The notes beneath the pieces are model-generated. The model made no database searches. It had not been told where the DNA came from and worked only from the letters and a program-made list of their open reading frames with translations. 32,287 nucleotides of DNA from a bacterium. GTDB lineage: Bacteria; JACRDZ01; JAQUKH01. The number at the start of each line of letters is the position of its first letter. The stretch's first letter is position 1. The position numbers and the translations under genes were made by a program. Positions 22,891 to 32,287 of the stretch are shown one piece after another. Location of the stretch: contig JAQUKH010000029.1 in assembly GCA_028719205.1 (NCBI GenBank), positions 1 to 32,287 of the forward strand, written 5' to 3'.

Positions 22891-23043
22891 GTAAATAAGG
22901 CTTCCGCACTCAGGGATCTGGAACTTTTGAGAAAACCGTTTCATCCCTCCGGTTTTTTTGAAAATGGCCGTGTTACCGGTATTTCTGGGTGTGGGAGGTT
23001 TTATACTATCTTGAATTTATTGAAAAAATACCTGGGAGTTATA

Positions 23044-24483
23044 ATGGAAAATAGAAACAAAAATAGAAATAGAAAAAGTGGCGTTGAAATTATCGGGGAT
23101 CTTTCATGGGGAACACATCTCTGCCAATTTTACCGGACCAGGGAAGATTTAATTGAAGTACTGGTTCCTTATTTTAAGGCGGGATTGGAAAATAATGAAT
23201 TCTGTATATGGATTATTTCCGAACCTTTAGGAGTTGAAGAAGCAAAAGAAGCCCTGCGGAAAGAAATAGTGAAATTAGATGACTATTTTAGAAAAGGACA
23301 GATTGAGATATTAGATGTTGTTCAATGGTATGAAGAATCAGGAAGATTCAGCATGGATCTGGTATTAAAGAAGTGGGTAGAAAAAGAACATCAGGCTATA
23401 GAAAGAGGATTTAATGGTGTTCGTGCCAGTGGAGATACCTTTTGGTTAGGAAAAAACAATTGGCCTGATTTCATGAATTATGAAAAAAATGTAAATTATG
23501 TAATTGATAACTTTAAACTTATTGCTATTTGTACATATTCTCTTGATAAATACAGAAATGAAGAAATTATAGATGTAGTTGCAAACCATCAATTTGCCAT
23601 TATTAAAGAGGATGACAAATGGAGACGCGTTGAAGTTTCAGAGTTCAAAAAAACAGAAGAAAAAGTCCAGAAACTAAACAAATTTTTAAATAATATATTA
23701 GAATCATTTAGTTATCCCCTTTATGTAATAAATGCTGATGATTACATTATCCAGGCAGCAAATGAAGTTTCCGGTATGGCAAACTTATCGGAAAGTCAGA
23801 CCTGTTACGCGGTACTTCATAAGCGTAAAAAGCCCTGCAGTGGTGAACTTTGCCCGCTTGAAAAAGTAAAGAAAACCAAAAAAAATATAGTTATAGAGCA
23901 TACTCATTATGATGGGGATGGAAATGCAAAGTTTGTAGAAATTCACGGTTCTCCCATATTTGATGACAAAGGTAATGTAAAGCAAATGATAAACTACGTT
24001 AAGGATATAACCCCCCATAAAATAGTGTTAAATTCCCTGAAAGAGTCTAAAGAGGAACTGCAGAACCAGAAATTGGCTTTAGAACAAAAAGACCTGGCAC
24101 TAAAGGAAATGATAGAACATATTGAGAGGACAAAAAATAAATTAAAAGAAAATATTTCAATCAACATGAATGAAACAATATTGCCGGCTTTAGAGAAGTT
24201 TAAAATGAAAGGTGTATCTTCCGATCACGTTGACCTGCTTCATCGTTATATGGATGAATTAACATCTTCATTTGGCTCTAAAATAACACAAAAAAGTTTC
24301 AAGTTGACACCGAGAGAAGTTGAAATTTGTAATATGATAAAAAACGGTTTTAGTAATAAAGAAATCTCCGATTTCCTGAATATATCCCTCCAGACGGTTG
24401 AAATGCACCGCAAGAATATAAGAAAAAAATTAAACATATCTAATAAAGATATTAATTTATCCTCGTATCTGCATGAAATCTAA
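23044..24483 (+). CDS. MEDS-PAS-LuxR sensory transcription regulator
   Basis: I take the ATG at 23044, which has GGGAG upstream; an upstream in-frame TTG has no support. The 479-residue protein starts with a MEDS/DcmR-type sensory domain at about 15-190, seen in SWGTHLCQFYRTREDLIEVL and FCIWIISEP. A PAS domain follows at about 210-335, with a Cys set in KKPCSGELCPLEKV and the end FDDKGNVKQMINYVKDIT. A coiled linker leads to a LuxR-type HTH at about 420-475 with LTPREVEICNMIKNGFSNKEI. MEDS domains are linked to hydrocarbon or one-carbon sensing in methanogens and methylotrophs. The Cys cluster may bind a metal or heme, which is inference. It could control the gas vesicle operon downstream. Confidence 0.88.
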   Translation: MENRNKNRNRKSGVEIIGDLSWGTHLCQFYRTREDLIEVLVPYFKAGLENNEFCIWIISEPLGVEEAKEALRKEIVKLDDYFRKGQIEILDVVQWYEESGRFSMDLVLKKWVEKEHQAIERGFNGVRASGDTFWLGKNNWPDFMNYEKNVNYVIDNFKLIAICTYSLDKYRNEEIIDVVANHQFAIIKEDDKWRRVEVSEFKKTEEKVQKLNKFLNNILESFSYPLYVINADDYIIQAANEVSGMANLSESQTCYAVLHKRKKPCSGELCPLEKVKKTKKNIVIEHTHYDGDGNAKFVEIHGSPIFDDKGNVKQMINYVKDITPHKIVLNSLKESKEELQNQKLALEQKDLALKEMIEHIERTKNKLKENISINMNETILPALEKFKMKGVSSDHVDLLHRYMDELTSSFGSKITQKSFKLTPREVEICNMIKNGFSNKEISDFLNISLQTVEMHRKNIRKKLNISNKDINLSSYLHEI

Positions 24484-24536
24484 TTCATAAAATCAGAAGC
24501 TGTTTTACAAACCTTCCTTGATTTGTTTTATTTGGT

Positions 24537-24553
24537 GGGTATTTTTTATACCC
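24537..24553. other. GGGTAT-TTTTT-ATACCC hairpin
   Basis: A perfect 6-bp stem around five T residues, 54 bases after the MEDS-PAS-LuxR stop. It could be a weak transcript end or an operator. The lack of a following T-run argues against an intrinsic terminator on the plus strand. Confidence 0.35.
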
Positions 24554-24675
24554 TGTATCTACCTGTTAAGTTCCCGTTGACCATTTTACCCCGATGTATT
24601 AATCTTGACATCAGAAAAAGTTGTCGTATGTCGTACGCTTATCAATTTGATAGGAGCTATTTGGGAATCGATAAA

Positions 24676-24921
24676 ATGGAAAGAAGAAAAAAAATGATCG
24701 GGACAAGTAATATAATAGAGAAAACAGGAATATCCGCTGAAAGGCTGAGATACTGGGAGAGGCTTGGTATTGTTAAACCGGTGTATGTCCAATGCGGGAA
24801 GAGAAAATTTAGAAGATATTCAGAAGAGGATATCCATAGGGCTGTTTTAGTTAAAGTGTTAGTGGATACTGAGAAGTATTCTCTCGAGGGTGCGGTAAAA
24901 AAATTGGATGAAGAAAAATAA
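24676..24921 (+). CDS. Short MerR-type DNA-binding protein
   Basis: The 81-residue form from ATG 24676 is a MerR winged helix alone: NIIEKTGISAERLRYWERLGIV, then GKRKFRRYSEEDIHRAVLVKVLV. There is no effector domain. The start is uncertain; ATG 24694 and upstream ATG 24628 share the frame, and the longest frame (from 24523) has no good ribosome site. It ends 101 bases before gvpA and points towards it, so it is the best candidate for a local gas vesicle regulator. Confidence 0.8.
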   Translation: MERRKKMIGTSNIIEKTGISAERLRYWERLGIVKPVYVQCGKRKFRRYSEEDIHRAVLVKVLVDTEKYSLEGAVKKLDEEK

Positions 24922-24927
24922 ATTTGG

Positions 24928-25006
24928 CCCCGATGTGACATCGGGGTTCAATTCATAGACGGGTTTCGTCCTACGATCCCGAAATCGGGATCGTCTATTC
25001 ATTGAA
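24928..25006. repeat. Nested palindromes upstream of gvpA (family D, copy 2)
   Basis: CCCCGATGT-G-ACATCGGGG at 24928-24946 is a perfect 9-bp inverted repeat. A second perfect one, ACGATCCCGA-AA-TCGGGATCGT, is at 24973-24994. The flanks TTCAATTCATAGACG and CGTCTATTCATTGAA are complementary at 13 of 15 positions, so the second hairpin is nested in a longer one. The first palindrome also occurs in the tsf leader (21611-21629). Confidence 0.85.
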
Positions 25007-25022: not shown

Positions 25023-25229
25023 ATGGCAGTAGAAAAAACAATAGGTTCAAGTTCGTTGGTAGAGGTTATCGACAGAATATTGGATAAAGGAGTAGTGGTC
25101 GACGCTTGGGTAAGAGTATCTTTAGTTGGTATTGAAATCCTCGCGGTTGAAGCCAGAGTTGTAGTAGCGTCAGTTGAGACTTATTTGAAGTATGCTGAGG
25201 CTATCGGCTTGACAGCGACAGCAGCCTAA
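25023..25229 (+). CDS. gvpA: Gas vesicle shell protein GvpA
   Basis: GvpA is the small hydrophobic subunit whose ribs form the gas vesicle wall. The 68-residue product matches the family in length and sequence: [31 protein letters not shown], with the helix-strand-strand-helix pattern, then [20 protein letters not shown]. It is the first gene of the cluster. The start at 25023 follows a near-perfect ribosome site; an upstream in-frame ATG at 25002 would add MKKEVIN, which the family lacks. A GNRA hairpin spans its stop codon. Confidence 0.98.
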
Positions 25230-25239
25230 GCGATTAGGC
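25224..25239 (+). other. GNRA-tetraloop hairpin across the gvpA stop codon
   Basis: GCCTAA at 25224-25229, loop GCGA, TTAGGC at 25234-25239: a perfect 6-bp stem with a GNRA loop. The TAA is the gvpA stop. No T-run follows, so it could act as an RNA stabiliser or pause site rather than a terminator. Confidence 0.6.
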
Positions 25240-25301
25240 AGTGAATTAAAGGGCTTCTTGCCGGATTATCCCCCGCTACTGAAGGCGTGGCATAGTTCGC
25301 C

Positions 25302-25313
25302 AAGGAATTCCTT
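25302..25313. other. AAGGAATTCCTT palindrome in the gvpA-gvpC gap
   Basis: A perfect 12-bp palindrome followed by TTTAAA. With a GGCG/CGCC stem at 25284-25301 just before, it forms the rest of the structured 143-base gap between gvpA and the first GvpC-like gene. No gene is seen in the gap. Confidence 0.4.
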
Positions 25314-25372
25314 TTAAACTCAGAATTGTAAAACATCAGCAGCACAATTTATGAAGATTTAAAGGGGAAATC

Positions 25373-26008
25373 ATGCTTTTAACAGAAGAAATAAAAGATA
25401 CTATTATTAATAATGTGCTCTCTTCTTATGAAGATAAGATTGAAAATATCGGAGAGATTTTCCAGGATTCCTTCCTTGATACAAGCCATGAAGTCGAAAA
25501 GATCAATAACGAGTTAAAAGATATACTTGCCAAAAATTCCTCTTTAAGAAAAAAAGATTTCGACCAAATAATGTTTGGGACTTTTTCTTTTCAGGTAAAT
25601 CGCGAAAAAGAGGTAAGGGACCTATCAAAATCATATTTTAATGAACAAAAGGAAATGTCAAAAGGCTTGAGAGAAAATTTAAAGAAATTTAAAGAATCTC
25701 TCGCGAACGGCGAGATCCAGAGAATACAGGAATTTCAGGATATGATAAGAGAAATTCTTGTCAAGCAGGAAGAAAGAAAAAATGAAGTTACCTCTAAACT
25801 AAAAGAATTTCAAAAAGAACAGGAGCTGATGGCAAAGAGTCTCAGCGATCTTTTAGCCAAAGGAAGAGAACTCAGGATAAATGACCTCAAATTAATGCTT
25901 CAGGAATTCAATACTCAGAATAAAGAACGGATGCTGGATCATAAAAACAGGAAAGAGGATATTCGAGAGAAACTAATAGAATTTAAAAAAATGCGATTGG
26001 AATTGTAA
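25373..26008 (+). CDS. GvpC-like coiled-coil gas vesicle protein (first copy)
   Basis: The 211-residue protein is almost wholly helical and charged, with no Cys or signal peptide. Three copies of R-x3-[VIL]-x2-[KM]-L-x-E-F start at R135, R168 and R193 and end at F146, F179 and F204. The F residues are spaced 25, 33 and 25 from F121 on, so a 33-residue period is mixed with a shorter one. Length, position right after gvpA and helical repeats fit a GvpC-type outer strengthening protein. The repeat is less regular than in the next gene. An AAAGGGG ribosome site precedes the ATG. The gvpC call is inference. Confidence 0.55.
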   Translation: MLLTEEIKDTIINNVLSSYEDKIENIGEIFQDSFLDTSHEVEKINNELKDILAKNSSLRKKDFDQIMFGTFSFQVNREKEVRDLSKSYFNEQKEMSKGLRENLKKFKESLANGEIQRIQEFQDMIREILVKQEERKNEVTSKLKEFQKEQELMAKSLSDLLAKGRELRINDLKLMLQEFNTQNKERMLDHKNRKEDIREKLIEFKKMRLEL

Positions 26009-26082
26009 TAACATGTTGAAAACACCATTTGTTGTAAATTTATCGATTTAACCGGCCATAATAGGCACAAAAAGGAGAAAAA

Positions 26083-26748
26083 ATGGGAATAGCTGAAGGC
26101 ATGAAAACTATTGTAGAAAATATTGTTGACTCGCACAAGGGCCGGACAAAAGAAATCAATAGTGTAATAATGGATACAAAAAATATTTTAAAAGAAGCAA
26201 AGACAACCTTACATGATTTTAGCAGGGAACGTAAGACAAATGCTTCCGAACAGGCAAAAAAATTAGCCGGTTTTACATCTGATCTGACAAAGAATGTGGG
26301 TGATATGCTTAAAGAGTTCAGGGAAAACCGTGAAGAAATGAGTGAAGAGCAGTCAAAAAATTTAGGCATTTTTATGGGGAGACTGGAAGATGATGTGGAA
26401 AAATTAAAAAAAGGCGTAAGCTTAATGATGAATGATTTTAAGAAAGATCGTGAAAAGTCTGCGTCCGAACTGAGAGAAAAGCTTGCCAAAGAAGTAACTG
26501 ACATTAAGGCTCATGTAAGCGGGCTTTTAGATGAAGCGGAGGACCTTATCAGCGGATACAGGTCGGATATGGTAGAGGCAAAAAAAGCATGGCAGGGGAT
26601 CTCTTCTACTTTATCTAAATCCGGAAAAGCAGGAATAATGGCAAAGATTGAAGCAGGAGAGAAAATAACTACTGTTGAAAAAAATGCTGAGAAAAAGCCT
26701 GTTGAAAATAAAACTGAAAAGAAGGCCGCAAAAAAGAAGAAAAAATAG
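26083..26748 (+). CDS. GvpC-like gas vesicle protein with 33-residue repeats
   Basis: The 221-residue protein has three imperfect helical repeats: 43-75, 76-115 and 116-148, of 33, 40 (33 plus one heptad) and 33 residues. The register is set by F46/F79/F119, R50/R83/R123 and L61/L94/L134; F64/F97 add to it. Cyanobacterial GvpC as I recall it has 33-residue repeats with the same R-x10-L-x2-F frame. This supports a GvpC that wraps the outside of the shell. The C-terminal 25 residues are Lys/Ala-rich, unlike the cyanobacterial end. A strong AAAGGAG site precedes the ATG. Confidence 0.68.
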   Translation: MGIAEGMKTIVENIVDSHKGRTKEINSVIMDTKNILKEAKTTLHDFSRERKTNASEQAKKLAGFTSDLTKNVGDMLKEFRENREEMSEEQSKNLGIFMGRLEDDVEKLKKGVSLMMNDFKKDREKSASELREKLAKEVTDIKAHVSGLLDEAEDLISGYRSDMVEAKKAWQGISSTLSKSGKAGIMAKIEAGEKITTVEKNAEKKPVENKTEKKAAKKKKK

Positions 26749-26763
26749 GGGAGGTAGATAATA

Positions 26764-27693
26764 ATGGTTGATGAGATGACTACAGTATTAGATCCAAGTC
26801 CCATGCACGACTTTGTGGAAACAAAGTATATAAAAGATATCAGTGACAGGGCGCTTTCTTATATCCAGGCGGGATTCCCGGTTCATTTCAGAGGCACCTC
26901 CGGGACAGGCAAGACAACACTCGCGATGCACATAGCAAGCAAGATCGAAAGGCCAGTGGTAATGATCCACGGAGATGAAGAATTTAAAACATCCGATCTT
27001 GTCGGGGGCGAATACGGATACAGGATGAAAAAGGTTGTGGACAGATTTATATCAAGGGTACTTAAGACGGAAGAGGATATGGTAAAACGCTGGGTAGATA
27101 ACCGGCTTACCATTGCCTGCAAGTACGGATATACATTGGTATATGATGAATTTACACGTTCACGGCCGGAGGCAAATAATATACTTCTTTCTATTTTGCA
27201 GGAAAAGATGATGGACCTGCCTATGGGAAGGGGGGGTAATGAACCTTATTTACGGGTAGACCCGAATTTTACGGCGATATTTACATCCAATCCAGAGGAA
27301 TACGCGGGTGTGCACAGGAGCCAGGATGCCCTTCGTGACAGGATGATCACTATGGACCTGGATCATTTTGACTATGAGACAGAAGTAGCCATTACAAGAG
27401 CAAAATCTCTTTTGGAAAAGAAGGATACAGAGGTAATAGTTAACATTGTCCGGGGCTTGAGGGATTCAGGGAAATGTGAATTCGCGCCGACCATCCGTGG
27501 CTGTATCATGATCGCCAAGACCCTGAAGGTTAGAAATATAACCCTGGGAAAGGCCAACGGGGTTTTTAAACAGATGTGCCAGGATATTCTGGCATCCGAA
27601 ACAAGCAGGGTTGGTTCAAAAACAAACCAGAACAGGGTAAGAGAAGTAGTAAAAGATATAGTTGAGAAGGAACTGGGAGGAGGAAAAAAATGA
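26764..27693 (+). CDS. gvpN: Gas vesicle protein GvpN (MoxR-type AAA ATPase)
   Basis: GvpN is needed for full-size gas vesicles and acts on the growing shell, apparently together with GvpC. The 309-residue protein has Walker A GTSGTGKT at 44-51, Walker B ending in DE at 128-129 (LVYDEFTRSR), and the sensor region IFTSNPEEYAGVHRSQDALRDRM. The MIHGDEEFKTSDLVGG stretch and the FxTSNP motif are family hallmarks. A gap of 15 bases follows the previous gene, with GGGGAGG upstream. It overlaps the next gene by ATGA. Confidence 0.97.
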   Translation: MVDEMTTVLDPSPMHDFVETKYIKDISDRALSYIQAGFPVHFRGTSGTGKTTLAMHIASKIERPVVMIHGDEEFKTSDLVGGEYGYRMKKVVDRFISRVLKTEEDMVKRWVDNRLTIACKYGYTLVYDEFTRSRPEANNILLSILQEKMMDLPMGRGGNEPYLRVDPNFTAIFTSNPEEYAGVHRSQDALRDRMITMDLDHFDYETEVAITRAKSLLEKKDTEVIVNIVRGLRDSGKCEFAPTIRGCIMIAKTLKVRNITLGKANGVFKQMCQDILASETSRVGSKTNQNRVREVVKDIVEKELGGGKK

Positions 27694-27995
27694 AAGGAAT
27701 GCTTCAGGTACCAGGCGCGAGAGATGTAAAAAGTATTCATTCCGCGGGTTTGAGGGCTATCCCTAAAATCCAAAGGTCAAGTTATTTAGAACTATATACG
27801 TTCAAAAGAGAAAAGGACAGACTGGAAAAAGAAATTTTCGCGTTAGATAAAAGAAGGAATACGGCAAGCAGGATGTTAAACGGCCTTTATCAGCGGATCG
27901 AAACACTGGAAAAAGAAATACAAGAGGAAGGGAAAATTAAGACCTACACGAATATACCGGCGAAACCGGTAAAAAAAATGACGATTAATTATTAA
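27690..27995 (+). CDS. Small coiled-coil protein in the GvpV position
   Basis: The 101-residue product starts with an unusual segment rich in Gly, Ala and Pro (VPGARDVKSIHSAGLRAIPK). A coiled coil at about residues 33-80 and a short Lys/Pro tail follow. In the Serratia sp. 39006 cluster the gene order is gvpA-gvpC-gvpN-gvpV, so position suggests GvpV; I cannot confirm sequence relatedness. Translation is coupled to gvpN by an ATGA overlap. It might bind GvpN or the shell. Confidence 0.5.
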   Translation: MKGMLQVPGARDVKSIHSAGLRAIPKIQRSSYLELYTFKREKDRLEKEIFALDKRRNTASRMLNGLYQRIETLEKEIQEEGKIKTYTNIPAKPVKKMTINY

Positions 27996-28069
27996 AACCC
28001 CCTTTATTCCCCCTTATCAGGGGGATAATTCAAGTTTTTCCCCTGATAAGGGGAGATCAAGAGGGGTTA
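27996..28069. repeat. C-rich palindromic repeat inside the gas vesicle operon (family A, copy 3)
   Basis: Two hairpins, CCCCC-TTATCA-GGGGG and CCCC-TGATAA-GGGG, face each other. The outer flanks AACCCCCTTTATT and GATCAAGAGGGGTT also pair, so the unit folds as one long inverted repeat. It sits between the GvpV-position gene and the Hsp20 gene and must be transcribed with them. Confidence 0.8.
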
Positions 28070-28096
28070 GAATTTAGTAATAAAAGAGGGGAAAAA

Positions 28097-28621
28097 ATGG
28101 CAAAAGAAAAAAAATCGAAAACGGATAAAGAAGAAGGTGTGAATTTAGATTTCGGTATGGGAGGCTTATTAAAAGGAATTAATAATATAATCGACATGGC
28201 TGTTAAATTAGAAGAGGCAGGAGGTGAAATTAAAAAAGAAGGAGAGATTGATTTAGACCATCTCAGAAAAGGTATGAAGGGCGTGTTTGGTTTTTCCGTG
28301 AGGACAGCGACAGGCGGGAAAACTGTAGTTGAACCCTTTGGCAATATTAAAAAAACACCCAAAGGGCCAAAGGTTGAAGAAGAGAGAGAGCCTATTATTG
28401 ATATCTTTGATGAAAAAGAAGAGATTAAAATTTACGCTGAGATGCCGGGTGTTAATGAAGGGGATATAAAGATAGATCTGAAAGGTGATATTCTTGAAAT
28501 TTCAGCTGAAACCGGTGACAGGAAATATCATAAAGAAATCTTACTGCCCGCGAAGGTAAGGGCAGACACAATTAAATTTTTCTATAAAAACGGTATGTTA
28601 GAGGTAAAGGTAAAAAAATGA
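28097..28621 (+). CDS. gvpH: Hsp20-type gas vesicle protein GvpH
   Basis: The 174-residue protein has an alpha-crystallin (Hsp20) domain from about residue 100 to the end: YAEMPGVNEGDIKIDLKGD and then FFYKNGMLEVKVKK. The N-terminal 95 residues are Lys/Gly-rich and not part of the fold. Hsp20-like GvpH proteins occur in archaeal and many bacterial gas vesicle clusters, where they may keep shell proteins soluble. The usual I-x-I tail after the domain is missing; the protein ends in VKVKK. It overlaps the ATPase gene by ATGA. Confidence 0.85.
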   Translation: MAKEKKSKTDKEEGVNLDFGMGGLLKGINNIIDMAVKLEEAGGEIKKEGEIDLDHLRKGMKGVFGFSVRTATGGKTVVEPFGNIKKTPKGPKVEEEREPIIDIFDEKEEIKIYAEMPGVNEGDIKIDLKGDILEISAETGDRKYHKEILLPAKVRADTIKFFYKNGMLEVKVKK

Positions 28622-29553
28622 ATGGATTAACCGGTTTAACAGACTCCTCATTAAAATTGATCTTATTTGGCGGGAAGGGCGGGGTTGGAAAGACAACCTG
28701 CAGTGTAGGTACAGGCTTATATTTATCTGAGGGGTTGAAGACACTTTTAATCTCGACAGATCCGGCGCATTCACTTGGTGACAGCCTGGGCCAGGAAATA
28801 GGTGATACTGTGCGGCAGGTAAAGGATATAACTAATCTAAGCGCTCTTGAAATAAGCGCTGAAAAGGCGCTTTCTAAATTTAAGGTAGTATATGAATCCC
28901 AGATAATGAAGATTTTAGGGACATCTACTTATTTAGATGATGAAGATATTGATTCAATTTTTTCTTTGTCTATTCCGGGTATAGATGAGGTCATGGGATT
29001 TAAAGCCATCATTGATCTTATTAACGATGCTAAATTTGATAAATACATTGTAGATACCGCGCCGACAGGCCACACCTTAAGGCTTTTGACATTGCCCGGG
29101 CTTTTAGATCAATGGATCAAGGTTATGGCAAAGATGAGATGGAAGTACAGGTATACGGTTGAAACGTTTGCCGGTGAATATAATCCTGATGAAGGCGATG
29201 ATTTTATTCTGGAGATGAAAAAGACAGTAAAAAGAATTGAGGAATTACTTCGTGATGAAAAGCGATGCGAGTTTGTTGTGGTAACAATTCCGGAAGAGAT
29301 GGCTGTTTTAGAGACAGAAAGATTAATAAATAATTTAACAAAATATGGGATAGCGGTAAAACAACTGGTTATTAATAATGTTTTAGAGTGGAATGAGTGT
29401 GATTTTTGCAGGGAAAGAAGAAAGGTGCAGGAAAAATATATTAACCAGATAAAAAAGAAATTTGGTAATTTACAGATAACTAATATACCTTTACAGGCTC
29501 AAGAGGTTAAAGGGATAACCGCTTTGAATAATTTCAAAAAATTATTATTTTAA
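28618..29553 (+). CDS. ArsA/Get3-type P-loop ATPase in the gas vesicle operon
   Basis: The 311-residue single-domain protein has the deviant Walker A GGKGGVGKT at 18-26, the switch segment DPAHSLGDSLGQ near 50-65, and DTAPTGHTLRLL. A C-x-x-C pair at C261/C264 (CDFCRER) lies where Get3-type ATPases form their zinc-linked dimer. ArsA exports arsenite with ArsB; Get3 delivers tail-anchored membrane proteins. No ArsB is present, and the neighbours are gas vesicle genes. A targeting or chaperone role for the hydrophobic shell protein is therefore a reasonable inference. It ends one base before the AAA ATPase gene. Confidence 0.88.
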   Translation: MNGLTGLTDSSLKLILFGGKGGVGKTTCSVGTGLYLSEGLKTLLISTDPAHSLGDSLGQEIGDTVRQVKDITNLSALEISAEKALSKFKVVYESQIMKILGTSTYLDDEDIDSIFSLSIPGIDEVMGFKAIIDLINDAKFDKYIVDTAPTGHTLRLLTLPGLLDQWIKVMAKMRWKYRYTVETFAGEYNPDEGDDFILEMKKTVKRIEELLRDEKRCEFVVVTIPEEMAVLETERLINNLTKYGIAVKQLVINNVLEWNECDFCRERRKVQEKYINQIKKKFGNLQITNIPLQAQEVKGITALNNFKKLLF

Positions 29554-29554
29554 T

Positions 29555-31714
29555 ATGGGAAATCAGAATATGGTTTTAACACTTAAAGTAAAAGAGGCGC
29601 TGTCAAAAGATGTAGGCAGGGCCGTTGTCAGGATAGATCCGAAAGATATGAGAACCCTTGGATTAGAAGTGGGTGATATCGTAGAGGTTCAAGGCAAGAG
29701 AAGCACACCTGCTAAAGTAATGCCTTGTTATGTTGAGGAAAGAGATAAAAAAATAATTCAGATCGACGGGATATCGCGTGAGAACGCGCAGGTTGGGCTT
29801 GACGAAAAGGTAAAAATTAAAAAGGTTGATTATAATCCGGCAAGTAAAATAGTGCTTTCCACTATAAGCGGGCCGGGTTTTTCCAATACCCAATATCTCG
29901 GTTCTTTGATAGAAGGCCTTCCGTTAATTACAGGGGACCGGATCAGGACCGCGTTATTCGGATCAAAGTATTGTGAGTTCAGGGTCATAGATACAGTGCC
30001 TGCCAACGTGGTTTTAGTGGGGCCGAACACACTTATAAAGATGGATTTAAAGGATGCGAAAGATACGGTTGAACAGTCGAGGGCGAAGGTTTCATATGAG
30101 GATATTGGAGGCCTGGGACCTCAGATCCAAAGGATAAGAGAAATGATAGAATTGCCTTTGAGATACCCTGAGGTTTTTGAGAAATTAGGGATTGACGCGC
30201 CTAAAGGCGTTTTACTTTATGGCCCTCCCGGTACTGGGAAAACCTTAATAGCCCGCGCGGTGGCAAATGAGACGGATGCGTATTTCACCCATATATCAGG
30301 GCCTGAAGTAATGGGGAAATTTTATGGAGAAAGCGAGGGGCGTTTAAGAGGCGTGTTTGAAGATGCTCAAAAACATGCGCCCGCGATTATTTTTATTGAT
30401 GAGATAGACGCGATCGCCCCGAAACGAGAGGATATGGGTTCTGAAAAACAGGTTGAGAGGCGTGTGGTGGCTCAGCTTTTATCTTTACTTGATGGTTTAG
30501 AGAAAAGGGGTCAGGTCATAGTAATAGGCGCGACGAATATCCCAAACGCTTTGGATCCCGCGTTAAGGAGACCCGGCAGGTTTGACCGGGAGATATCTAT
30601 CCCGATACCTGATAAAAACGGAAGATTAAAAATACTTGAGATATATACAAGGGGCATGCCTCTGGAAGAAAATCTGGATTTAGGGAAAATAGCCGGGATG
30701 ACCCATGGTTTTGTCGGCGCGGACCTGGAGGCCCTGGCAAGGGAATCAGCGATGTCGGAGCTTCGCAAGATTATGCCGCTGATAGATTTTGGAATGGAAA
30801 TTCCCTATGAAACCCTGGTTGGATTAAAAGTGACAATGGATGATTTTTTAGAGGGAATGAAAGAGGTTGAACCTTCGGCGATCCGCGAGTTTTTTATAGA
30901 GGTGCCTAATGTTAAGTGGGATGATGTCGGAGGCTTGGATGAAATAAAGGAAGAATTAAAAGAGGCGATAGAATGGCCGCTCAAATATGCTGATGTTTTT
31001 AAGAAAGCGAATACTAACCCTCCCAAGGGGATCTTACTTTACGGGCCGCCCGGAACAGGAAAGACCCTTTTAGTTAAGGCCGCGGCGACTGAAAGCGGGG
31101 TAAATTTTATCTCCGTGAAAGGGCCTTCTCTGGTATCAAAATATATAGGAGAGAGTGAACGTGCGATCCGCGAGGTATTTAAGACCGCTAAACAGGCGTC
31201 GCCCTGTATTTTATTTTTTGATGAAATAGATGCCATTGTTCCTAAAAGAGGCTCTTCGGGTGACAATAATGTTATAGAGCGCGTGATCAGCCAGTTTCTG
31301 ACTGAGATGGATGGGATCGAGGAACTTAAAGGCGTGATGGTTTTAGGCGCCACGAACAGATTAGATATTATTGATCCCGCGATAATAAGGAGCGGCAGGT
31401 TTGATCTTTTGCTTGGTTTATCGCAGCCTTCCGAAAAAGACAGGGAAAAAATATTTAAAATACATACCAAAAATAAACCTTTGGCTGGTGATGTGGACCT
31501 GAAGGCAATGGTAAAACAAACAAATGACAGGACGGGGGCTGATGTTGAATTTATTTGCCGAAGGGCATCGATGCTCGCGGTAAAGGAATACATTGAAGAG
31601 CAAAGAGCAAAGGGCATAGAGCATGGAGCAGATAACAAAGAAGAATTAAAAATTTCAAAGAGGCATTTTGAGGAGGCTATTAAAAACAGAGCTTCAAACT
31701 TTAGAACAATTTAA
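29555..31714 (+). CDS. Cdc48/VCP-type double AAA ATPase
   Basis: The 719-residue protein has the classic Cdc48 layout. A Cdc48-N domain covers about 1-100, with EALSKDVGRAVVRIDPKDM and GLEVGDIVEVQG. D1 has Walker A GPPGTGKT at 223-230 and Walker B IIFIDEIDAI. D2 has Walker A at 497-504 and ILFFDEIDAI. Arg-finger regions (RRPGRFD and RSGRFD) are intact. Cdc48 unfolds or extracts proteins; it is common in archaea and eukaryotes and patchy in bacteria. Its place in a gas vesicle operon suggests work on shell proteins, by analogy with Cdc48 genes reported in some gas vesicle clusters. Overall length is slightly short of archaeal VAT. Confidence 0.94.
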   Translation: MGNQNMVLTLKVKEALSKDVGRAVVRIDPKDMRTLGLEVGDIVEVQGKRSTPAKVMPCYVEERDKKIIQIDGISRENAQVGLDEKVKIKKVDYNPASKIVLSTISGPGFSNTQYLGSLIEGLPLITGDRIRTALFGSKYCEFRVIDTVPANVVLVGPNTLIKMDLKDAKDTVEQSRAKVSYEDIGGLGPQIQRIREMIELPLRYPEVFEKLGIDAPKGVLLYGPPGTGKTLIARAVANETDAYFTHISGPEVMGKFYGESEGRLRGVFEDAQKHAPAIIFIDEIDAIAPKREDMGSEKQVERRVVAQLLSLLDGLEKRGQVIVIGATNIPNALDPALRRPGRFDREISIPIPDKNGRLKILEIYTRGMPLEENLDLGKIAGMTHGFVGADLEALARESAMSELRKIMPLIDFGMEIPYETLVGLKVTMDDFLEGMKEVEPSAIREFFIEVPNVKWDDVGGLDEIKEELKEAIEWPLKYADVFKKANTNPPKGILLYGPPGTGKTLLVKAAATESGVNFISVKGPSLVSKYIGESERAIREVFKTAKQASPCILFFDEIDAIVPKRGSSGDNNVIERVISQFLTEMDGIEELKGVMVLGATNRLDIIDPAIIRSGRFDLLLGLSQPSEKDREKIFKIHTKNKPLAGDVDLKAMVKQTNDRTGADVEFICRRASMLAVKEYIEEQRAKGIEHGADNKEELKISKRHFEEAIKNRASNFRTI

Positions 31715-31727
31715 AGGAGGATTAAAG

Positions 31728-31847
31728 ATGTTAAAGATCATTGAAAAAATTAAAAATTTATTCACGTGTAAAAAGAAAGAAGAAGAATTAACGCCACAGC
31801 AGGAAAAGCCTGAAGCAGAAGAACCTAAACCAGAAGAAAAAAAATAA
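31728..31847 (+). CDS. 39-residue peptide with basic helix and acidic tail
   Basis: An AAAGGAGG site 8 bases upstream of the ATG and a clean 39-codon frame support this tiny gene. The N-terminal MLKIIEKIKNLF could be an amphipathic helix, with a lone Cys at 14. The tail is rich in Glu, Pro and Lys (PEAEEPKPEEKK). It could be a membrane- or shell-binding peptide, but nothing here proves it. No family is recognised. It lies between the Cdc48-type gene and gvpF/L. Confidence 0.6.
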   Translation: MLKIIEKIKNLFTCKKKEEELTPQQEKPEAEEPKPEEKK

Positions 31848-31867
31848 TAAATTGAGGGTAGAATTTT

Positions 31868-32287
31868 ATGGCTGAAATCGGAAAATATATTTATGGGATT
31901 ATAAATTCCAATACAACATTACATCTTTCTGTTCCAAAAGATTTTTCCGGGGCTGAAGGCGTCAGTGACGGTGTTTATACAATTCCTTATCATGATATTT
32001 CGGCAATGGTAAGGGATTGTGAGGTGTTTGATTATACCTCCGTGCCTAATGATATTGGCGTCAGGATGTTACTCAAGCATCAGACGATTATTGAAAGAAT
32101 CATGAATTCCGGGATCACGGTTATCCCTGTAAAGTTAGGGACCTTTATTCAGGATGAGGTGGAGATCAAACATGTTTTAGATAAAGGATATAACCTCATA
32201 AAAGATGTTTTGGATAAAATAAACGATAAGATAGAGATTGATGTCGCTGTTACGTGGAATGATTTTCCTTCATTCATAAAAGAGATA
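31868..32287 (+). CDS. Gas vesicle protein GvpF/GvpL, 5' part
   Basis: The frame is open to the window edge (140 codons visible). The N-terminus GKYIYGIINSN and the segment VIPVKLGTFIQDE are family hallmarks of GvpF/GvpL, which bind GvpA and start vesicle assembly. F and L cannot be told apart from this part. A GAGGGTAGA site precedes the ATG. The C-terminal domain and any gvpG, gvpK or gvpJ genes lie outside the window. Confidence 0.93.
   Translation, partial: MAEIGKYIYGIINSNTTLHLSVPKDFSGAEGVSDGVYTIPYHDISAMVRDCEVFDYTSVPNDIGVRMLLKHQTIIERIMNSGITVIPVKLGTFIQDEVEIKHVLDKGYNLIKDVLDKINDKIEIDVAVTWNDFPSFIKEI

Follow-up and report, generated by a model that had tools for sequence, protein, structure and literature searches.

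Hsp20, a Get3-like ATPase, Cdc48 and a J-domain GvpF are encoded together in gas vesicle operons of many phyla

The window analyzed here, 32,287 bp in length, is a whole contig (C29) of a bacterial genome of 2.59 Mb that is 93% complete, and from position 25023 to the contig end it carries an operon for gas vesicles, the buoyancy organelle. We find that four protein-handling components, the small heat-shock protein Hsp20 (GvpH), a single-chain Get3/TRC40-like ATPase, the AAA+ unfoldase Cdc48 and a GvpF protein with a J domain, are encoded together with the gas vesicle (gvp) genes, and that the set keeps its order and is inherited with gvp genes across many phyla. A preliminary description of the contig had listed ten co-directional, closely spaced genes; all ten exist, tightly packed on one strand; neighbors lie -4 to 143 bp apart, and most of the genes have a good ribosome-binding site. 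Overlaps of 4 bp join gvpN to the 101-amino acid (aa) gene and hsp20 to the ATPase gene, and a single base separates the ATPase gene from cdc48. In order, the genes are as follows (matches to models and relatives in parentheses).

25023..25229, +, gvpA, main shell protein, 68 aa (PF00741, 3.5e-15; NF006874, 5.3e-39)
25373..26008, +, C1, helical protein in the GvpC position, 211 aa, of a family conserved in gvp loci (relatives in G001, 81%, and G041, 54%)
26083..26748, +, C2, helical protein of the same position class, 221 aa, with a lysine-rich tail (relatives in gvp loci)
26764..27693, +, gvpN, AAA+ ATPase of the MoxR/dynein type (TIGR02640, 1.7e-101)
27690..27995, +, coiled-coil protein in the GvpV position, 101 aa (most gvp loci have a relative after gvpN)
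28097..28621, +, hsp20, small heat-shock protein of the Hsp20/GvpH type, 174 aa (PF00011, 1.3e-8; NF041800, 139.6 bits)
28618..29553, +, single-chain Get3/TRC40-like ATPase ('ArsA'), 311 aa (TIGR00345, 2.6e-86; fold match to TRC40/Get3)
29555..31714, +, cdc48, AAA+ unfoldase of the Cdc48/VAT type, 719 aa, with N domain, D1 and D2 (TIGR01243, 4.4e-280; tree; motifs)
31728..31847, +, peptide of 39 aa with an amphipathic N-terminal stretch and a charged tail (conserved in G001 with a ribosome-binding site)
31868..32287, +, gvpF/L (GvpF1), first 140 aa, cut by the contig end (PF06386)

The last 191 bases of the window match the reverse complement of one end of another contig of the same genome, C14, at 97.9%, and from this end overlap we infer that the two contigs join. 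C14 completes the cut GvpF1, which ends in a DnaJ domain (PF00226, 3.4e-12) with its HPD motif intact (FHPDNNPN). Behind it lie two GvpF/L genes, GvpG, a GvpO-like protein of 82 aa, another GvpF/L, a fusion in which GvpK follows a GvpJ/A domain, a second GvpA-family protein (GvpA2) and a TraB/ChaN-like protein. Reading past position 32287 for gvpG, gvpK and gvpJ, as the preliminary description had advised, therefore brought out all three, with additional copies of GvpA and GvpF/L. Counting C14, gvpA stands together with the core genes gvpF/L, gvpG, gvpK and gvpN, and the locus is a genuine gas vesicle cluster, which we read as a complete operon with a probable client-handling chaperone module of its own.

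Linkage and co-occurrence with gas vesicle genes

We measured linkage with a GvpN alignment scan, one genome per species, which gave 80 loci, and counted the 48 other loci with at least 8 kb of sequence downstream of gvpN; these are the closest GvpN relatives, so that the counts hold for this branch of the gas vesicle clusters only. Behind gvpN, Hsp20 was found at 46 of the 48 loci, Cdc48 at 45 and the Get3-like ATPase ('ArsA') at 38, with the three consecutive at 32. Cdc48 adjoins GvpF1 at 37 loci, the J-domain HPD of GvpF1 is present at 43, and the Cdc48-bearing gvp loci are spread over about 18 phylum labels. Hsp20, ArsA and Cdc48 beside gvpN are the common arrangement in this branch, in many phyla. 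The set recurs in relatives, but the view of it in the preliminary description as 'unusual' or 'added' is not supported: it is widespread, and a 2010 paper had already reported ArsA with Hsp20 in gvp clusters (PMC2963123). A genome of the same genus (G001) has a syntenic block (GvpN 93%, ArsA 90%, Cdc48 83%), and one of another phylum (G041) has nearly the same gene order. The host does belong to a poorly sampled lineage: among the relatives shown, no more than three further genomes came from its phylum.

Phyletic distribution gave a second measure. Among 247 genomes of the Bacteroidota group, gvpN occurs in 19 and Cdc48 likewise in 19, and 18 genomes have both (Fisher 3.7e-25); because the sampled genomes are related, such p-values are only indicative and overstate independence, and a few of the genomes were known beforehand to be gvp-positive. 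The exceptions are one genome with only gvpN, whose sequence ends 0.9 kb behind that gene, and one with only Cdc48. An ArsA of the gvp type (at least 295 bits) occurs in exactly the 18 genomes that have both, the next match scoring 141 bits. The link is looser in the Thermodesulfobacteriota (247 genomes), where Cdc48 is found in 15 of the 18 genomes with gvpN and in 9 of the 229 others. In one genome (G282), gvpN, ArsA and Cdc48 lie on different contigs and all are retained; genes that are dispersed yet kept point to function and not only to shared position.

These data bear directly on the idea that the ATPases are chance neighbors of the gvp genes, or part of a general stress operon beside them. 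Unrelated ArsA proteins do occur in many Bacteroidota-group genomes, and the nine Thermodesulfobacteriota with Cdc48 and no gvpN would fit the idea as well. However, it is already contradicted by linkage and co-occurrence across many phyla and by a gvp-specific clade of Cdc48 (see below), and we reject it as extremely improbable. The ATPases are clearly linked to gvp genes in relatives, and the proposal that the operon's three NTPases belong to the gas vesicle system holds.

The Get3-like ATPase

The 311-aa ATPase scores 289.8 bits against the TRC40/GET3/ArsA model TIGR00345, for which the cut-off is 135, and this places it in that family. It is a single chain with the dimerizing CxxC motif (CDFC), which 32 of 39 gvp-linked single-chain homologs share, and its lobe motif reads WIKVMAKMRWKYRY. 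A predicted model (pLDDT 86.7) matches TRC40/Get3 with Z 32.8 and an rmsd of 2.2 over 278 residues at 38% identity. The archaeal TRC40/Get3 proteins of tail-anchored protein targeting (3zq6 and 3ug7) share with it the fold (the Z of 32.8 is to 3zq6), the GGKGGVGKT P-loop, the DTAPTGH switch and the CxxC. Unlike them, the window protein is gvp-linked and has, in place of the client lobe, a stretch, WIKVxAKMRWKYRYM, that is conserved among the gvp homologs.

Its Pfam family is ArsA_ATPase, which would allow that it is an arsenite-pump ATPase placed here by accident. The pump protein has two ATPase halves per chain, whereas this one has a single half, stays far under the cut-off of the arsenical-pump models (136 of 650 bits) and matches the pump ArsA less well in fold (Z of about 25, 27% identity). 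TRC40/Get3 is the best match by both sequence model and fold, the CxxC is of the Get3 style, and 38 of 48 gvp loci have the protein; we noticed no further ars gene in the operon. We consider the pump reading ruled out for all practical purposes.

ArsA homologs were described together with Hsp20 in the gvp clusters of Polaribacter irgensii, Pelodictyon luteolum and Geobacter uraniireducens, and a role in energizing gas vesicle biogenesis was proposed (PMC2963123). Those clusters share gvpN, multiple gvpF/L, gvpG, gvpJ, gvpK, the ArsA homolog and Hsp20 with the window operon. They differ in that their ArsA has two domains (about 640 aa) and neither Cdc48 nor a J domain is mentioned, whereas the window has a single Get3-like chain followed by Cdc48.

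The Cdc48 unfoldase

The Cdc48 family is usually regarded as archaeal and eukaryotic. The 719-aa protein of the window belongs to it, with 931 bits against TIGR01243 (cut-off 803), a PF02359 N domain, two PF00004 AAA domains and their lids. All 55 full-length gvp members retain both Walker A motifs, and nearly all have aromatic pore loops. Archaeal VAT/Cdc48 has the same N-D1-D2 architecture, aromatic pore loops and intact Walker motifs, while the window protein differs from it in clade, in its C-terminus and in its host. Specifically, an HbYX-like C-terminus was seen in no gvp Cdc48 row, and a proteasome/HslV gene (PF00227) was not found in the 93% complete host genome. Coupling of Cdc48 to a proteasome in this host was rejected on these two grounds; such coupling is not obligatory for members of the CDC48 family.

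In our trees every gvp-linked Cdc48 falls into one clade with support 100 and a long stem. Copies from alphaproteobacterial plasmids and dispersed copies in gvp genomes are among them, and two unlinked copies in gvp genomes (L174 and L177) lie inside the clade too; outside it lie haloarchaeal plasmid copies and those of Rhizobium, Methylobacterium, G021 and G376. Because the trees were quick and the outside sample comprised nine rows, the exclusivity of the clade is provisional. One metagenome-assembled genome (G100) has two gvp-type Cdc48 operon pieces (L033 and L179) whose nearest relatives in the tree differ, from either two clusters or contamination of the bin.

Cultured bacteria have related clusters. 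Plasmid p1 of Methylocella tundrae T4 and plasmid pMSC49b of Methylosinus sp. C49 carry gvpA, gvpN, gvpF, gvpG, gvpJ, Hsp20/GvpH and a CDC48-family ATPase within about 8 kb; unlike the window, they show no ArsA/Get3-like gene and have a TraB-like protein between Hsp20 and Cdc48. The haloarchaeal gvpACNO/gvpDEFGHIJKLM cluster shares GvpA, N, F, G, J, K, L and the chaperone GvpH with the window operon, whereas as described (PMC6107691) its 14 genes include no Cdc48 or Get3-like gene. Searches of open-access full texts brought up no paper that describes Cdc48, or GvpF fused to DnaJ, in gas vesicle clusters, which is not proof of novelty.

Assembly or turnover

Cdc48 proteins are segregases. With both rings intact and aromatic pore loops, the gvp members could act in turnover, stripping GvpA or GvpC, together with Hsp20, from collapsed or unwanted vesicles for buoyancy loss or for reuse of subunits; Hsp20-Cdc48 neighbors outside gvp loci, in haloarchaea, are what a repair pair would lead one to expect. 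The position of Cdc48 speaks against turnover, for it lies amid assembly genes and directly before gvpF1 at 37 of 48 loci. The Get3-like and J-domain parts, moreover, are holdase and delivery types, and the host genome has no detected proteasome. We judge turnover to be unlikely.

Another possibility is that Cdc48 and the Get3-like ATPase recycle assembly factors, such as complexes of GvpN, GvpF/L and GvpO, and not GvpA itself. Cdc48 adjoins gvpF1, the operon has several GvpF/L paralogs and a GvpO-like protein, and GvpL has been described as a platform that binds almost all Gvp proteins (PMC9501494). Recycling would leave unexplained, however, why a Get3-type ATPase and an Hsp20, both of families that hold hydrophobic clients, accompany Cdc48, and we regard it as rather improbable.

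We favor, at somewhat better than even confidence, an assembly-side chaperone relay for aggregation-prone subunits of the GvpA family, in which Cdc48 would pull apart those that are mis-assembled. GvpA and its relatives GvpJ and GvpA2 are presumably both hydrophobic and produced in large amounts, and Hsp20 and the Get3-like dimer would shield them and keep them soluble. GvpF-J would bind GvpA and recruit DnaK through its HPD motif, and GvpN/GvpO with the GvpF/L complex would then place the subunits into the growing rib. The Cdc48 hexamer may thread subunits that have aggregated or gone into the wrong place, or else assembly factors, and return them for a new attempt; in this host, since no proteasome was found in the genome, the return would proceed without proteasomal proteolysis. 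In split-GFP tests, GvpF was the only haloarchaeal Gvp that clearly bound GvpA, and GvpH stops the aggregation of GvpM (PMC9501494, PMC6107691).

Some observations weigh against the relay. In alignment the client lobe of the ATPase is unlike the methionine-rich lobe of archaeal Get3, so binding of hydrophobic clients is not assured. The isolate Prolixibacteraceae bacterium JC049 has gvpN and ArsA and no Cdc48 in its genome. To our knowledge, many characterized systems (haloarchaea, Serratia, cyanobacteria) form vesicles without a gvp-linked Cdc48, so that there is no general need for it. Where the preliminary description spoke of an assembly or disassembly machine, the tie of the ATPases to the gas vesicle system stands, and the choice between assembly and disassembly is one that sequence cannot decide.

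Other genes of the operon

GvpN scores 339 bits against TIGR02640 (cut-off 266.8) and is a member of that family. Several relatives (L062, L064, L072, L074 and L057) have two different gvpN genes per cluster, the second copy being 53-63% identical to the window GvpN. C1 and C2 had been described as GvpC-like. Their family is conserved in gvp loci, whereas none of its 23 members matches the Pfam GvpC repeat model at E <= 0.01; a GvpC identity was rejected on this model, and the name would reflect position and helical make-up only.

Hsp20 (PF00011) scores just under the cut-off of 140 bits for the archaeal Hsp20 model NF041800. This placement at the edge of the archaeal model, with the haloarchaeal Hsp20-Cdc48 neighbors outside gvp loci, suggests the recruitment of an Hsp20-Cdc48 pair of archaeal type. 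The 39-aa peptide is real: in a comparison with G001 only, a closely similar peptide of 39 residues lies in the equivalent place with AGGAGG ahead of it. The GvpO-like 82-aa protein (p82) scores 15.1 bits with PF05800, below the cut-off of 25; E-values of 0.1 or lower were obtained for 19 of 20 relatives, down to 8.5e-8.

TraB/ChaN-like proteins of about 200-230 aa recur in gvp loci and very often adjoin Cdc48, as in Chloroflexi-type loci with the order Hsp20-Cdc48-p228. Weak Pfam TraB matches were found in 9 of 13, and a predicted model matches ChaN with Z 8.8. Examples are the following.

L004, 12704-13390, -, TraB/ChaN-like protein in a gvp locus
L036, 19809-20486; L039, 17027-17644; L048, 14114-14731; L111, 18624-19205; L182, L183 and L184, the same protein in further gvp loci

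Small proteins with DnaJ-type CxxCxG zinc-finger repeats adjoin gvpN in many relatives (L031, L032, L035, L039, L040, L044 and others), not in the window. Together with the J domain of GvpF, they give the impression of a DnaJ whose parts are divided among different gvp genes.

Upstream region

Directly upstream of gvpA (window 22927-24921) lie a PAS/LuxR-like sensor-regulator, read from sequence only, and a MerR-type regulator, which was confirmed; two-component or regulator genes flank gvpA in L021, L111 and L112 too. Between these genes and gvpA there is one further feature.

24973..24994, +, perfect inverted repeat of 9 bp, ACGATCCCG-AAAT-CGGGATCGT, shortly upstream of gvpA (terminator-like scan)

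It may be an operator that goes with the MerR-type gene immediately before it, or else a leader hairpin. Despite this repeat, the region overall showed no excess of terminator-like structures over shuffles, and a scan of it for consensus promoters likewise gave no excess. RNA folding between gvpA and C1 (z -1.6) gave no evidence of a partial terminator there.

Implications

GvpA is very hydrophobic, and how it is kept soluble and placed in the growing wall is an open question. The conserved set of Hsp20, Get3, Cdc48 and GvpF(J) names candidate assembly factors that are lacking in model systems, and it probably represents standard equipment for handling proteins during construction of the vesicle wall that has drawn little notice. 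Heterologous expression of gas vesicles serves ultrasound imaging. More tentatively, and with rather less confidence than we give the relay itself, many bacteria may have a Get3-like targeting ATPase reserved for the delivery of shell subunits and a Cdc48 reserved for policing them, so that tail-anchor targeting and Cdc48 extraction would have a cytosolic parallel in the building of a gas organelle with a protein wall. A specific and likely function thereby emerges for bacterial Cdc48, which in the sample from the Bacteroidota group occurs almost only in genomes with gas vesicle genes.

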